NCBI GenBank assembly: GCA_016188785.1
Contig: JACPHD010000034.1
Coordinates: 1 to 54,009, forward strand
Direction: 5' to 3'
DNA from: Parcubacteria group bacterium
GTDB taxonomy: Bacteria > Patescibacteriota > Patescibacteriia > Patescibacteriales > GWC2-42-12
Length of the DNA: 54,009 nt
Positions 3,997 through 52,203 of the stretch are shown piece by piece. Every line of letters begins with the position of its first letter. Position 1 is the stretch's first letter. Below the pieces are notes generated by a model. It was not told where the DNA came from and made no database searches. It saw only the letters and a program-made list of their open reading frames with translations. The position numbers were made by a program, and so were the translations under genes.

Positions 3997-4017
3997 ATGT
4001 TTGTCAGTTGTCATTGC

Positions 4018-4121
4018 GAGCCCCGACGCTTTGGTCGGGGCGAAGCAATCTCACGAACTATTAATTTAATGAGTCATTCGTTAAATTGATTGACTCTTTT
4101 GTTCGCTCGCGAGTGACAGAG
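4018..4121. repeat. GTCATTGCGAG...GAAGCAATCTC palindromic element
   Basis: GTCATTGCGAGC at the left end is the imperfect inverse of GCTCGCGAGTGAC at the right. Inside is a GC hairpin (CCCCGAC/GTCGGGG) and GAAGCAATCTC. Family members recur at 27832-27882 and twice in 35450-35574. The upstream RNase J ORF runs into this copy. Confidence 0.7.
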
Positions 4122-11098: not shown

Positions 11099-11199
11099 AG
11101 TTTGGGCTAAGTTTATTAAATTTTCGAACGAGGACTGTTTGAGGCCGCCACAGGCGGGCGAGTTCCGCAGGAGAAAATTTAATAAACTTAGCCCAAACT
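11099..11199. repeat. Site-specific-arm palindromic element, copy 1
   Basis: Two perfect 27-bp inverted arms (11099-11125 and 11173-11199) enclose a 47-bp core containing GCGAGG-like CGAGGACTGTTTGAG, a short palindrome and CGAGTTCCGCAG. Copy 2 at 52099-52203 has the same core ends but different arms. It lies between rpe and tkt and creates a false N-terminal extension of tkt. Confidence 0.85.
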
Positions 11200-30001: not shown

Positions 30002-30078
30002 ACTTTTTAATTTAGTTATTATTTTTACCCGGCTTTAGCCGGTGTTATTTTATTTTAGCTAAATACAAACGATAAATT

Positions 30079-30188
30079 TTCAAATCCCAATTTTCAATTT
30101 TCAAACAATTTTCAATGTTATAATTTTCAATTGAAAATTTAATAATTGGTCATTCATTGAAAATTGGTCATTGAAAATTGAAAATTAT
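30079..30188. repeat. AT-rich spacer repeat, family A
   Basis: CAATTTTCAATTTTCAAACAATTTTCAATG and its inverse CATTGAAAATTGGTCATTGAAAATTG form a long imperfect palindrome between nusA and hppA. Confidence 0.65.
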
Positions 30189-34258: not shown

Positions 34259-34666
34259 ATGTTAGACAAAAAAGCCAAACAAAAAATCATTAACAAGTTT
34301 AAAATCCATGAAACCGATACTGGGTCATCTCAAGTGCAAATCGCTATTTTAACCGAAGAAATCAAGCAATTAACCGAACACTTAAAAAGGCATAAACATG
34401 ACCATTCTTCCCGGCGCGGCTTATTAAAAAAAGTCAGCGAACGCCGCCGCTTATTAAAGTATCTGCAAAAAGAAGATAAAACCGCCTTTGATGAACTGGC
34501 TAAAGCCTTAAAATTAAGGATTGCCAAAAAAATGATTGAAGATGAAGAGGCTAGGCAAAAAATTGAAAATGAAATTTTAGCTAAACAAGAACTAAAAGCC
34601 GAAGCGGCCGAAGAAGCGGAAAATGAACGGGCCGAAGACCGTAAAAATAAAGAAGACGAAGAGTAA
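34259..34666 (+). CDS. rpsO: 30S ribosomal protein S15 with charged C-terminal extension
   Basis: 135 residues from the ATG at 34259. The first 89 are S15: KIHETDTGSSQVQIAILTEE, LKRHKHDHSSRRGLLKKVSERRRLL and the DELAKALKLR end. About 45 extra residues, rich in Glu, Ala and Lys, follow. S15 binds the 16S central domain and is often autoregulated; the leader has repeated GGTTAAAGCC/GGGTCAAAGCC pieces that might fold, but no known operator was identified. Upstream TTTACA and TACATA-like elements could be the promoter. Confidence 0.93.
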   Translation: MLDKKAKQKIINKFKIHETDTGSSQVQIAILTEEIKQLTEHLKRHKHDHSSRRGLLKKVSERRRLLKYLQKEDKTAFDELAKALKLRIAKKMIEDEEARQKIENEILAKQELKAEAAEEAENERAEDRKNKEDEE

Positions 34667-34669
34667 TAA

Positions 34670-34808
34670 GTATACAAATTACAAATCGGTTACGAATTTA
34701 CAAATAAATATAATCTGAATACCCCAAATAATTTGTAAATTTGTAATTGATTCGTAATTCGTATTCCTTTTATTCGTAAATTCGTAAAAAATTCGTAATT
34801 CGTATACA
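34670..34808. repeat. AT-rich spacer repeat, family C
   Basis: Three to four units of AATTTGTAAATTCGTAATT-like sequence with inverted partners between rpsO and the NYN gene. Confidence 0.65.
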
Positions 34809-35315: not shown

Positions 35316-35574
35316 TCACCCCTGTTAAATAAATTTGCTTCGCAAATTTACGCGGAGCGTATTTAACGGGGTTAACCGCTTGGCCGGCAGATATTTAGCA
35401 CTGTGAGCCTAACTCATAGTCTACAATTTACCGGCCAAGCAGAAGATTTTGTCATTGCGAGGAGTCCCCCACCAAAATTTGGTGGGGGACGACCGAAGCA
35501 ATCTCCGGTTAATATCCGAGTATGTGAGATTGCTTCGCTCCCCCGCAGATGCGGGGTCGCTCGCAATGACAAGT
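35316..35574. repeat. Nested palindrome cluster before pnp
   Basis: Four units in a row: ACCCCTGTTAAATA...TATTTAACGGGGT; GCTTGGCCGG...CCGGCCAAGC; and two inverted TCATTGCGAG/GAAGCAATCTC units, one holding TCCCCCACC...GGTGGGGGA and the other CCCCGCAGATGCGGGG. The same inner hairpins occur inside other hosts at 52141-52166 and in the 16S gene. Confidence 0.8.
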
Positions 35575-42497: not shown

Positions 42498-42627
42498 CAG
42501 ACTGTCCGAAAACTCGGAAATTCGTCATTCCCCTGAAAAGGGGAATCCAGAAAGAATTTAATCTTAGCCAAATATTTTTTCTGGATTCCTGCCTGCGCAG
42601 GAATGACGATACTTTTCGGACAGTCTG
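42498..42627. mobile_element. 130-bp MITE
   Basis: Perfect 15-bp terminal inverted repeats CAGACTGTCCGAAAA/TTTTCGGACAGTCTG flanked by a TAT direct repeat on each side. Subterminal GTCATTCC...GGAATCCAG units are themselves inverted. No coding capacity. A degraded relative lies at 4886-4985. It sits between two genes of the glycosyltransferase cassette. Confidence 0.85.
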
Positions 42628-46270: not shown

Positions 46271-46352
46271 AAAAACTTATTGAGAGTTTGACCCCGCCTC
46301 GGCGGGGTGAACGCTGACTCAACTTCGTTGAGAGCGTTCCTAACTTTCGCTA
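46271..46352 (+). repeat. Copy of the 16S 5' end with a replaced hairpin
   Basis: AAACTTATTGAGAGTTTGA at 46273-46291 and TGAACGCTG at 46308 repeat the first 40 nt of 16S. Between them the native TCCTGGCTCAGGA is replaced by CCCCGCCTCGGCGGGG. GAACGCT and AGCGTTC then close a second stem with CTCAAC/GTTGAG, and CCTA/TAGG a third. Confidence 0.85.
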
Positions 46353-46672: not shown

Positions 46673-46688
46673 CCCCGCATCTGCGGGG
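46673..46688. repeat. Palindrome inserted in a 16S variable helix (5' domain)
   Basis: CCCCGCATCTGCGGGG caps the helix near E. coli positions 180-220; it is the reverse complement of the hairpin at 35541-35556. Confidence 0.75.
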
Positions 46689-47245: not shown

Positions 47246-48305
47246 AATCCATGCCCGCTCATAAAATATAGGTAAAAGGTGTCTCTTTTGACGGCGACGT
47301 CAAGATGAAAATTCAGCTATATCGGGGAAACTCCTGACAAAATGAGGTTTTACTGGCCTCGCCAGGACAATCCCGAGGGAAGTTCCATGGCCCGAAAAGC
47401 CATGATGAACCCCGTAGAGACTATGAAGTTGGTTTCGAGATAGAAGGCGCATTAATTAAAATATATGAATCATTATGTGCCTTTGTCGGATCGCGCCAAG
47501 GAAATTATTCTTGGCTCGCTTTTAGGGGATGGATCATTAAAGATCCATGATAAATACAAGAATGCCAGATTTTCTTTCAGGCATTCCGAGGCGCAAAAAG
47601 ATTATTTCTTCTGGAAAGTAAAAAATCTGAAAGAAATATCTTCAAAAAATTGCGTTTTTTGGCAGGAAAACAACGGCGGATTCAGTTCTAATAAAAAAAT
47701 CAGGTATCAAAGCTTGGCCTTGCCGTCGCTTACTGAAATTTATCAACTTACCCATAAGAAAAAAAAATTGCGTATCAGCCGGAGATGGCTGAACAAAATG
47801 ACAGCTCTGTCATTGGCTATTTGGTGGTTTGATGACGGTTCGCTGATTGCCAACGGCCGCAAAGGAGTATTTTGCACAGATGGTTTTGACGAAAAAAGCG
47901 TTAAAACTCTAGCGCAATACTTCTTGGTCGTTTGGAAAATCAAGACTAAAGTCGCGCCAATTACCAGAAAAAGGCGGGGGGAGCAGAAAAAATATTGGCG
48001 GCTCTGGCTGTATTCAACGGAAGAGCTGAAAAAATTTCTGCGGCTGATATTGCCGCAGACGCCGACGGCAAGCGCTTTGTCGAAAGTCGCGCTTCTCTAC
48101 AATGATCAACAACTTCAACAACGCTGGATATCTGAAATAGTTCAGTTAAGCCGTTTTTCTCTATCTGCCATTATGGCAGAATATGAGAAAAAACGCGCTA
48201 AATGGAGCCGTTACAGATAAAGATCTAGTCCGGACTTCATGGTAACATGAAGAATGGGACAGAAATGTTCCCATCAATTGCTAAAAGCAATTTGCAACAA
48301 ATTCA
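47246..48305 (+). mobile_element. Group I intron with homing endonuclease in 16S rRNA
   Basis: A 1,060-nt insertion at about E. coli position 793/794, in the 790 loop (GGATTAGAT|ACCCCAG). P1 pairs exon AGAT with intron TGTCT including a U-G at the splice site; the adjacent GGT can form P10 with exon ACC. Core elements resembling P/Q (ATCGGGGAAACTCC, ACAATCCCGAG), R (GTAGAGACTA) and S (AAGATCTAGTCC) are visible. The endonuclease ORF lies between R and S, i.e. in the P8 region. The predicted last intron base is A, where nearly all group I introns have G. Confidence 0.85.
47465..48220 (+). CDS. LAGLIDADG homing endonuclease
   Basis: A 251-residue monomeric enzyme with two LAGLIDADG helices: EIILGSLLGDGSL near residue 14 and SLAIWWFDDGSL near 116; the acidic Asp residues are at the catalytic positions. 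It should cut intronless 16S alleles and spread the intron. The stop codon overlaps the S core element of the intron (TAAAGATCTAGTCC), so coding and ribozyme sequences are interlocked. The start ATG follows AATTAAAATAT without a clear ribosome site. Confidence 0.95.
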   Translation: MNHYVPLSDRAKEIILGSLLGDGSLKIHDKYKNARFSFRHSEAQKDYFFWKVKNLKEISSKNCVFWQENNGGFSSNKKIRYQSLALPSLTEIYQLTHKKKKLRISRRWLNKMTALSLAIWWFDDGSLIANGRKGVFCTDGFDEKSVKTLAQYFLVVWKIKTKVAPITRKRRGEQKKYWRLWLYSTEELKKFLRLILPQTPTASALSKVALLYNDQQLQQRWISEIVQLSRFSLSAIMAEYEKKRAKWSRYR

Positions 48306-48441
48306 ACCCCAGTAGTCCACGCCGTAAACGATGGATGCTGAGCATTGGAAGTATCGACCCTTCCAGTGCTGTCTACCTAAGTTAACACCTTAAGCATCCC
48401 GCCTGGGGAGTACGAGCGCAAGCTTAAAACTCAAAGGAATA

Positions 48442-48604: not shown

Positions 48605-48890
48605 ACCGTTAATTCGGGAAACGAGCGCAACCCCTATCCTATGTTTCATGTGTCATAGGAAACTGCCCGCTTTAAGTGGGAGGAAGGTGGGGATGACGTC
48701 AAATCAGCATGGTTCTTACACCTTGGGCGACACACGTGCTACAATGGGAAGCACAAAGGGACGCCAAAGCGTAAGCTGGAGCAAATCCTTTAAAACTTCT
48801 CTCAGTTCGGATTGAGGTCTGCAACTCGACCTCATGAAGCTGGAATCGCTAGTAAACGTGGATCAGCCACGCCACGGTAATGCCCGAAGG

Positions 48891-48906
48891 CCCCGCATTT
48901 GCGGGG
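48891..48906. repeat. Palindrome in 16S helix 44
   Basis: CCCCGCATTTGCGGGG near the tip of helix 44 (E. coli about 1450), same family as 46673-46688 and 35541-35556. Confidence 0.7.
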
Positions 48907-49407: not shown

Positions 49408-49478
49408 AAATTTTCGATTTATAATTTTCGATTTTAGATTTAAAATCTTCAATCGAAAATCTTAAATCTTAAATTTCT
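49408..49478. repeat. AT-rich spacer repeat, family B
   Basis: TTTTCGATTTATAATTTTCG and inverse between tRNA-Ile and tRNA-fMet. Confidence 0.65.
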
Positions 49479-49482
49479 ACAT

Positions 49483-49558
49483 CGCGGGGTAGAGCAGTTG
49501 GCAGCTCGCCAGGCCCATAACCTGGAGGCCGTGGGTTCGAATCCCACCCCCGCAACCA
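49483..49558 (+). tRNA. Initiator tRNA-fMet (CAU)
   Basis: C1 faces A72 (no pair) and A11 pairs with U24, the two marks of bacterial initiators; CCA is encoded. The anticodon stem is CCAGG/CCTGG, so the usual three G-C pairs are reduced to two plus A29-U41, and position 33 is C instead of the near-universal U (loop CCCATAA). Confidence 0.93.
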
Positions 49559-49560
49559 AG

Positions 49561-49630
49561 ATATTTGCGATTTATAATTTTCGATTTTAGATTTAATTCG
49601 CAAATCGAAAATCTGAAATCTGAAATTACC
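49561..49630. repeat. AT-rich spacer repeat, family B
   Basis: Same unit as the previous spacer, between tRNA-fMet and tRNA-Phe. Confidence 0.65.
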
Positions 49631-52098: not shown

Positions 52099-52203
52099 CT
52101 TAGTAAATAATGGCAAATTTTCGTGCGAGGACTGTTTGAGCCCCCCACCAAAATTTGGTGGGGGGCGAGTTCCGCAGTAGAAAATTTGCCATTATTTACT
52201 AAG
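52099..52203. repeat. Site-specific-arm palindromic element, copy 2
   Basis: Perfect 24-bp arms (52099-52122 and 52180-52203) around a core with GCGAGGACTGTTTGAG, a nested CCCCCCACC...GGTGGGGGG hairpin and CGAGTTCCGCAG. Core ends match copy 1 at 11099-11199; the outer arms do not. Confidence 0.85.

Follow-up and report, generated by a model that had tools for sequence, protein, structure and literature searches.

The window, the whole 54,009-nucleotide stretch of DNA analysed here, carries at 35316-35574, between a NYN-domain gene and pnp, palindromes nested within palindromes, and the locus raises the question of whether the small inner hairpins are units that pass from one palindrome to another. 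An earlier note on this DNA had answered that they are, proposing that hairpins themselves are the mobile unit and that they prefer the loops of other hairpins. The window is contig 5 of a draft genome (G000; 1.007 Mb, 45 contigs, 95% complete), and the survey is based on genome-wide pattern searches and selected stretches of sequence. The organism is probably a Patescibacterium, to judge from the small size of the genome, a 16S intron with a LAGLIDADG endonuclease, and the other records that contain module B (see below), several of which are Parcubacteria. The genomes compared comprise (i) G001 and G003, two genomes of the same genus used for orthologous sites, and (ii) 61 relatives screened for the element P1 described below, all comparisons being made on draft genomes that are probably metagenome assemblies. 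Names of genes at coding sites come from sequence recognition, a family search standing behind NYN, pnp and LAGLIDADG only.

The interval comprises three palindromes, the third of which contains the two modules that are followed throughout this work:

35319-35371, unstranded: P1, a T-shaped element with an outer stem CCCC(T)GTTAAAT/ATTTAACGGGG around two abutting hairpins, AAATTTGCTTCGCAAATTT and ACGCGGAGCGT
35378-35440, plus strand: nyn-pnp hairpin, a long predicted hairpin that has an altered counterpart at the equivalent position of G001 and G003
35450-35571, unstranded: REP1, a REPIN-like composite palindrome in which TGTCATTGCGAG/CTCGCAATGACA form the outer stem and GAAGCAATCTC/GAGATTGCTTC the central stem, with two side hairpins
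35466-35488, plus strand: module B side hairpin CCCCCACCAAAATTTGGTGGGGG, left side of this REP1
35541-35556, minus strand: module A side hairpin CCCCGCAGATGCGGGG, which is CCCCGCATCTGCGGGG on the minus strand, right side of this REP1

The earlier note had described two inverted units with different inserts, and these are the halves of REP1: TGTCATTGCGAG-...-GAAGCAATCTC starts at 35450, its inverted partner ends at 35571, and both inserts are exact. P1 and the hairpin at 35378-35440 fall in the same interval and are both separate from the two units. The latter hairpin is probably a pnp leader structure and not one of the repeats; it is retained in the orthologous nyn-pnp gap of G001 and G003, displays changes in both arms across the three genomes, has no Rfam match, and is a candidate regulatory leader of pnp. 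P1 and REP1 are both absent from the orthologous gap of G001 and G003, and are therefore either insertions in the lineage of the window or elements lost in G001 and G003.

The REP1 of the interval has an outer stem of 12 bp and a predicted four-way fold. In REP1 generally, ATTGC pairs with GCAAT ahead of a bulge, and the tips extend up to tens of nucleotides. The arm sequence TCATTGCGAG occurs in 69 copies genome-wide (0 for the reversed control), mainly as inverted pairs with a spacer between them, and at least 14 complete REP1 dimers could be parsed. The outer and central stems are constant and the side hairpins vary between copies. Four paralogs (the window copy at 35450 and those at L002, L004 and L006) share 79-92% spacer identity and differ in nearly all of their tips, the spacers like that of the window being combined with module A and CGACCGAAGAGAG at L002, with CGACTGAAAGGAG and GAGCGCTAGCGAC at L004, and with CGACCGAAGGGAG and GAATGAAGCGAAGCGGAATGAC at L006. 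The copies at L005 and L024:7881 have 77% identical spacers and 100% identical right tips, with left tips that differ. The REP1 tips listed in relatives include many further hairpins, such as CCCCGTACTCGGGG and TCCGCCAGCAGGCGGA. Two related features of the window complete this group:

4011-4053, plus strand: single REP1 arm with a different inner hairpin, CCCCGACGCTTTGGTCGGGG
42522-42609, unstranded: REP2-type CGTC-tagged palindrome pair, TCGTCATTCCCC...GGAATCCAG / CTGGATTCC...GGAATGACGA, forming an inverted repeat

On a larger scale, complete REP2 or REP3 pairs are nested in the outer arms of REP1 together with AT-rich filler (L002:5530-5789, L010:4370-4591), and the same insertion of element within element is observed at L013, L017, L019 and L020.

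In many REP1 tips the loop, GTACTC or GTAATC for example, stays the same and the stem changes in a complementary fashion. These compensatory changes would be explained by template switching inside one palindrome, the quasi-palindrome event that the available text of PMC3820800 presents as a documented mutation type. Extended to all the tips, this leads to a reading in which tips evolve in place, through template switching in a single imperfect palindrome, with similar GC-rich tips arising repeatedly or being kept by selection. We regard it as improbable as a general account, on the grounds of what the modules do elsewhere in the genome.

Module A (CCCCGCATCTGCGGGG, 16 nt) is present genome-wide in 10 exact copies and about 10 copies of the variant CCCCGCATTTGCGGGG, module B (CCCCCACCAAAATTTGGTGGGGG, 23 nt) in six exact copies in the genome of the window, and a third hairpin, module C (TCCGCCAGCTGGCGGA, 16 nt), in about 28 copies genome-wide including close variants, so that the modules span 16-23 nt. 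Chance recurrence is ruled out, both inserts of the interval giving 0 matches in 100 dinucleotide-preserving shuffles. Module B is found exactly at 8 further loci among about 85,000 species genomes, several of them in Parcubacteria and some distant, and the distribution of module C among relatives is patchy, from 0 to 26 copies. The hosts of the three modules include REP1, REP2 (TCATTCC...GGAATCCAG), a repeat named here element 2, terminator-like hairpins, two 16S rRNA helices and protein genes, with module C inside the coding sequences of rmlB, rpoC, uvrC and ligA and also in AT-rich repeats, and module A inside those of alaS and pth. Evolution in place cannot yield an identical 16-23 nt, loop included, in REPs, terminators, rRNA and genes, and is insufficient for A, B and C. 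As an observation apart, short AT-rich repeats such as AATTTTCAA and ATTCGTAA are arrayed into long inverted repeats between genes of the window at 559-693, 30075-30186, 34661-34807 and 49408-49627, and several module C copies elsewhere in the genome lie within arrays of this kind.

The first insert had been noted as recurring near 52141 in an unrelated element. The recurrence is exact, at 52142-52164; the description of the host needs correction, element 2 being a repeat family of its own in which the inner hairpin is variable:

52099-52203, unstranded: element 2, core GTGCGAGGACTGTTTGAG-[hairpin]-CGAGTTCCGCAGTAG inside long outer arms in inverted repeat, the hairpin being module B at 52142-52164; predicted fold
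11099-11199, unstranded: further copy of element 2, with different outer arms and inner hairpin GCCGCCACAGGCGGG

About 10 copies of element 2 were seen, with at least six different inner hairpins, A and B among them. In the two window copies and those at L006, L016, L035, L048, L051, L052 and L063 the core is constant, and the outer arms of 24-30 bp vary from copy to copy yet stay complementary, suggestive of selection on an RNA or DNA structure.

The possibility that the inner hairpins are inherited parts of their host families, spread solely by host transposition, has to be considered at this point, and within one repeat family module copies do spread along with their host. Module A has a single orientation in every REP1 arm examined, and several REP1 copies (L009/L011) share both the TCCGCCAGCAGGCGGA tip and the spacer, as this account would predict. 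Nevertheless, the same module occurs in unrelated hosts and different modules occur with the same spacer and outer stem, contradicting the notion of inner hairpins as fixed host parts only, which the earlier note had named as one of two cases that would overturn its proposal. Pure descent within host families is contradicted by the REP1 paralogs with the same spacer and different tips, and again by the 16S and terminator differences at orthologous sites described below; as a complete explanation it is scarcely credible.

The second insert had been traced to 16S rRNA, and two positions of this gene bear it out:

46673-46688, plus strand: 16S rRNA helix 10, with an exact module A in its loop, placed by cmscan alignment
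48891-48906, plus strand: 16S rRNA helix 44, with the module A variant CCCCGCATTTGCGGGG (one mismatch to A) at its tip

The 16S stretches of G001 are 93-99% identical to the window, and this gene offers the strongest orthologous comparison because the flanks are nearly identical. At helix 10, ATTTAT in G001 corresponds to CCTCGCCCCGCATCTGCGGGGCGGGG, a 26-nt hairpin, in the window. At the helix 44 tip, ACCCTGTAAAGGGT in G001 corresponds to CCCCGCATTTGCGGGG in the window between identical flanks, GAAGG and ACGAAGG. In all relatives the helix 44 tip is a hairpin that varies naturally, which speaks for evolution in place, so that the argument at this site depends on exact identity with a module found throughout the genome. 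Comparable changes are found outside rRNA: (i) in a terminator (L042 vs L111) the flanks AATAAA/TTTATT are kept, with AAATAGAAGCGGTTAAGGCCGTTTCTATTT in G001 and CCCCCCACCAAAATTTGGTGGGGGG in the genome of the window; (ii) beside a pilT-like gene (L057 vs L107) two tips are replaced by module A forms; (iii) rmlB and rpoC at module C, and alaS at module A, are shorter in both G001 and G003, and the frame is kept; and (iv) uvrC contains a longer AT-rich insert that includes module C. Hairpins in coding sequence where the relatives have none are a second outcome that evolution in place cannot yield. The G001 comparisons of L030:1446, L058:1543 and L057:4243 were left out, the alignment being too poor. 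A REPIN beside dnaB (L024 vs L115 and L125) was considered as a direct orthologous tip exchange and is not counted as proof, since its spacer in G000 is nearer to that of the paralog L005, and a separate insertion or conversion is possible. The old tip being replaced, the events at the orthologous loci look like exchange rather than clean insertion.

The 16S region displays further peculiarities. In relative G046 (L082), a long inserted hairpin, CCCCCGCCTAAATTTTCGAACTTCGAAAATTTTGGCGGGGG, occupies the helix 44 tip, apparently another independent replacement of an rRNA tip. At 48860-48885 the window lacks about 50 nt relative to G001 around the universally conserved GTAC(A/T)CACCGCCCGTC of the decoding region; as only one 16S gene was found, an assembly error seems likelier than a living cell without this stretch. 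A partial duplicate of the 16S start (ACTTATTGAGAGTTTGA...TGAACGCTG) lies just upstream of the gene at 46278-46330, with a 13-nt palindrome, TCCTGGCTCAGGA, replaced by CCCCGCCTCGGCGGGG, and no such partial copy is present in G001. In addition, an insertion of about 1.06 kb at 47247-48306, a probable intron, interrupts the 16S gene and comprises a LAGLIDADG endonuclease ORF at 47465-48220.

The preference for the loops of other hairpins, for which the earlier note had suggested a test of enrichment at loop centres, is borne out for part of the sites. Assigned by eye to tip or non-tip classes, most A sites, 6/6 B sites and about half of the C sites occupy the tip in a larger palindrome or a structured RNA. 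The clearest of the tests is that of module B: its flanking bases are complementary in 14/14 places in all genomes examined (null 0.29, p about 3e-8), the pairs including T-A and G-C besides C-G, and B therefore sits flush on a stem. By an automated anchored-stem score, which is stricter than the classes assigned by eye, the enclosing stem exceeds the 95th percentile of random positions at 18/56 A, B and C sites (p about 1e-10, a value that treats REP copies as separate although they are not independent); C sites outside REPs exceed it in 6/17 cases (p about 1e-4). A gapped-arm score reaches p<0.05 at 7/24, 3/6 and 2/29 sites, the last fraction, that of module C, representing little enrichment, and gives little signal also for the short-stem REP1 hosts. 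The idea of the earlier note is thus partly supported: tips are both exchanged and preferred, yet the preference is not exclusive, the modules being also found in genes and AT-rich repeats.

P1 shows best the rule of a fixed outer stem around inner hairpins that are mixed and matched. The element (CCCCGTTAAAT...ATTTAACGGGG) is present in 9/61 relatives, with 1 to 8 copies each (control, 0). Its outer stem of 11 bp is fixed, and 34/38 copies enclose exactly two inner hairpins with a few bases at most unpaired between or beside them. The stem classes of these hairpins form 18 combinations over the 38 copies and occur in both orders; for example, ACGC..GCGT is combined with CCCTTCGGG or with CCCAATC..GATTGGG, and TGCTTCGCA with CCGGC..GCCGG or with CCCCGC..GCGGGG.

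By comparison, then, the same stem and spacer carry different tips, the same tip occurs in different hosts, and orthologous tips are replaced. The best explanation of REP1, P1 and the modules, one to which we give an even chance of being correct, is a pool of tips exchanged by the host. According to this explanation, a pool of short, mostly GC-rich hairpins would circulate among the tips of REPs, element 2, P1, terminators and rRNA helices, and would more rarely land in AT-rich repeats or, with the frame preserved, in genes. Exchange would occur where host replication or repair acts on extruded hairpins, through (i) double template switching of the nascent strand between hairpin tips, or (ii) cleavage of a hairpin tip and capture of another hairpin fragment, and would need no enzyme that the hairpin encodes or that is reserved for it. 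The host elements, REP and P1, would be mobilised whole, in a process distinct from this one. That template switching also takes place between two palindromes is proposed here as an extension of the switching within one. As the old tip is usually gone, either route fits better than simple insertion. Template switching leads one to expect microhomology at each of the two joints. CC/GG is a plausible candidate in REP1 and helix 44, but in rmlB and the L042 terminator none is evident. Where modules lie in coding sequence or AT-rich repeats there is no obvious tip, and neither within-population polymorphism nor intermediates were seen among the draft genomes compared. The earlier conception of hairpins as the swapped unit is sustained by the shared modules, the differing tips on 77-92% identical spacers and the orthologous replacements; as a mobile unit they are described less well, the events resembling tip replacement and copies also spreading with the host.

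A wider version of the same idea, in which these bacteria share hairpin tips horizontally as a common currency, a host process swapping tips among all extruded hairpins whatever their function, so that rRNA, terminators and selfish repeats share one pool and P1 stems reassort two hairpins, is put forward tentatively, as something we would sooner doubt than accept.

On the other hand, each small hairpin could be a non-autonomous transposon, like the small dispersed repeats (SDRs) of cyanobacteria, moved in trans, for instance by a transposase recognising single-strand hairpins, with hairpin loops as favoured targets. Such elements would leave what is observed: identical copies at sites unrelated to one another, among them coding sequence that is shorter in relatives, the patchy 0 to 26 copies among relatives, and the exact 23-mer B in distant Parcubacteria. 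Some C sites are also flanked by imperfect direct repeats, e.g. CAATTTTCAA...CAATTTTCAA. Against these stand the loss of the old tip in most orthologous comparisons, which is replacement, and the finding that a consistent target duplication was not seen. Besides, G010 (98% complete, 26 copies of module C, TCCGCCAGCTGGCGGA) yields no Y1_Tnp or RVT_1 match, and the genome of the window has a single weak Y1_Tnp match, at G000:C15, within a 3.4-kb locus containing no REP1, REP2 or module. An IS200-like Y1 transposase or a reverse transcriptase as a necessary local factor is unsupported by these two genomes; a transposase from another family may be the agent. We consider the transposon account unlikely.

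An RNA route, in which the tips of hairpins in transcripts undergo recombination or copying and are then brought back into DNA by reverse transcription, would suit the several hosts that are transcribed (16S, terminators, coding genes) and the reverse-transcriptase match in the genome of the window (G000:C29), and such a route was reportedly suggested for the SDRs of cyanobacteria. Nevertheless, both G010 and G011 carry modules with no detected RVT_1, and the presence of RVT_1 does not track module copy number, leaving this route very doubtful.

Host-driven exchange among tips recalls several known systems. The SDRs of Nostoc, for which PMC4390886 cites Elhai et al. (2008, Genome Res 18:1484), are reportedly dispersed hairpins of 21-27 nt, found in minitransposons and tandem repeats and thought to be mobile. 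Modules A, B and C, likened to them by description, are also dispersed hairpins of about 20 nt nested in other repeats, and the orthologous differences from G001 and G003 speak for recent mobility, as replacement rather than pure insertion. SDR5 inserts precisely in the HIP1 palindrome (PMC4390886). The modules come from other organisms than the SDRs, measure 16-23 bp, and differ further in favouring hairpin tips, in displacing the tip already there, and in occurring also within 16S helices and, with the frame kept, within genes.

CGTC-tagged REPs display a TGTC/CGTC end followed by AT, a stem of 8-9 bp, a loop of 4-5 bp in a few types and a CCA tail, predominantly form head-to-head dimers, have no known dedicated transposase, and are reported to insert within palindromes in a few species (Di Nocera et al. 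2013, PMC3733652). REP1 has the expected end (TGTCATTGC) and the head-to-head dimers, but neither the stem and loop size nor the tail (CTCACG instead of CCA); REP2 has the end (TCGTCATTCC), fits the sizes better and has a fitting tail, CCAG. In contrast to these REPs, REP1 tips reach tens of bp and include modules common to unrelated elements. REPINs associated with RAYT (Y1_Tnp) transposases consist of two inverted REP units around a spacer, for which a long hairpin or clover is possible (PMC3116915). REP1 is likewise an inverted doublet foldable as one unit, whereas no Y1_Tnp gene flanked by the same REPs was found in the genome of the window (draft, 95% complete), and its side hairpins are exchangeable.

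The Rickettsia palindromic elements are palindromes of about 100-150 bp lying in frame in protein genes. The palindromes in rmlB, alaS, rpoC, uvrC and ligA share the in-frame position in conserved genes but not the length, the coding inserts being mostly hairpins of about 16 nt. RPE-4 and RPE-6 are listed as CGTC repeats (PMC3733652). Mitochondrial GC clusters (PMC4478555), sponge RHE (PMC2800124) and fungal double-hairpin elements are presented, in the available text of these sources, as short GC-rich hairpins in intergenic DNA and rRNA genes that are not removed; they are organellar, and the same text does not note tip exchange between different host palindromes for them.

A literature search by sequence string returned primer and oligonucleotide papers only, and nothing on such repeats in Patescibacteria; in the mostly open-access literature, no earlier report of tip exchange across hosts, orthologous rRNA replacement or a combinatorial P1 was found. 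Small nested mobile hairpins were already known in cyanobacteria and mitochondria; what is new is the exchange of tips across unrelated hosts, the orthologous replacements, rRNA included, and the combinatorial P1.

If this interpretation is right, the moving unit would be a hairpin of 16-23 bp, as small as the smallest mobile elements so far put forward or smaller still, and its target would be the tip of another hairpin. Such exchange would explain the loop diversification of palindromic repeats and provide a one-step replacement route for the tips of rRNA and terminators, and the movement of very small repeats would become testable through orthologous sites. Hairpin tips would also be unreliable characters for trees and for RNA family models in these bacteria.
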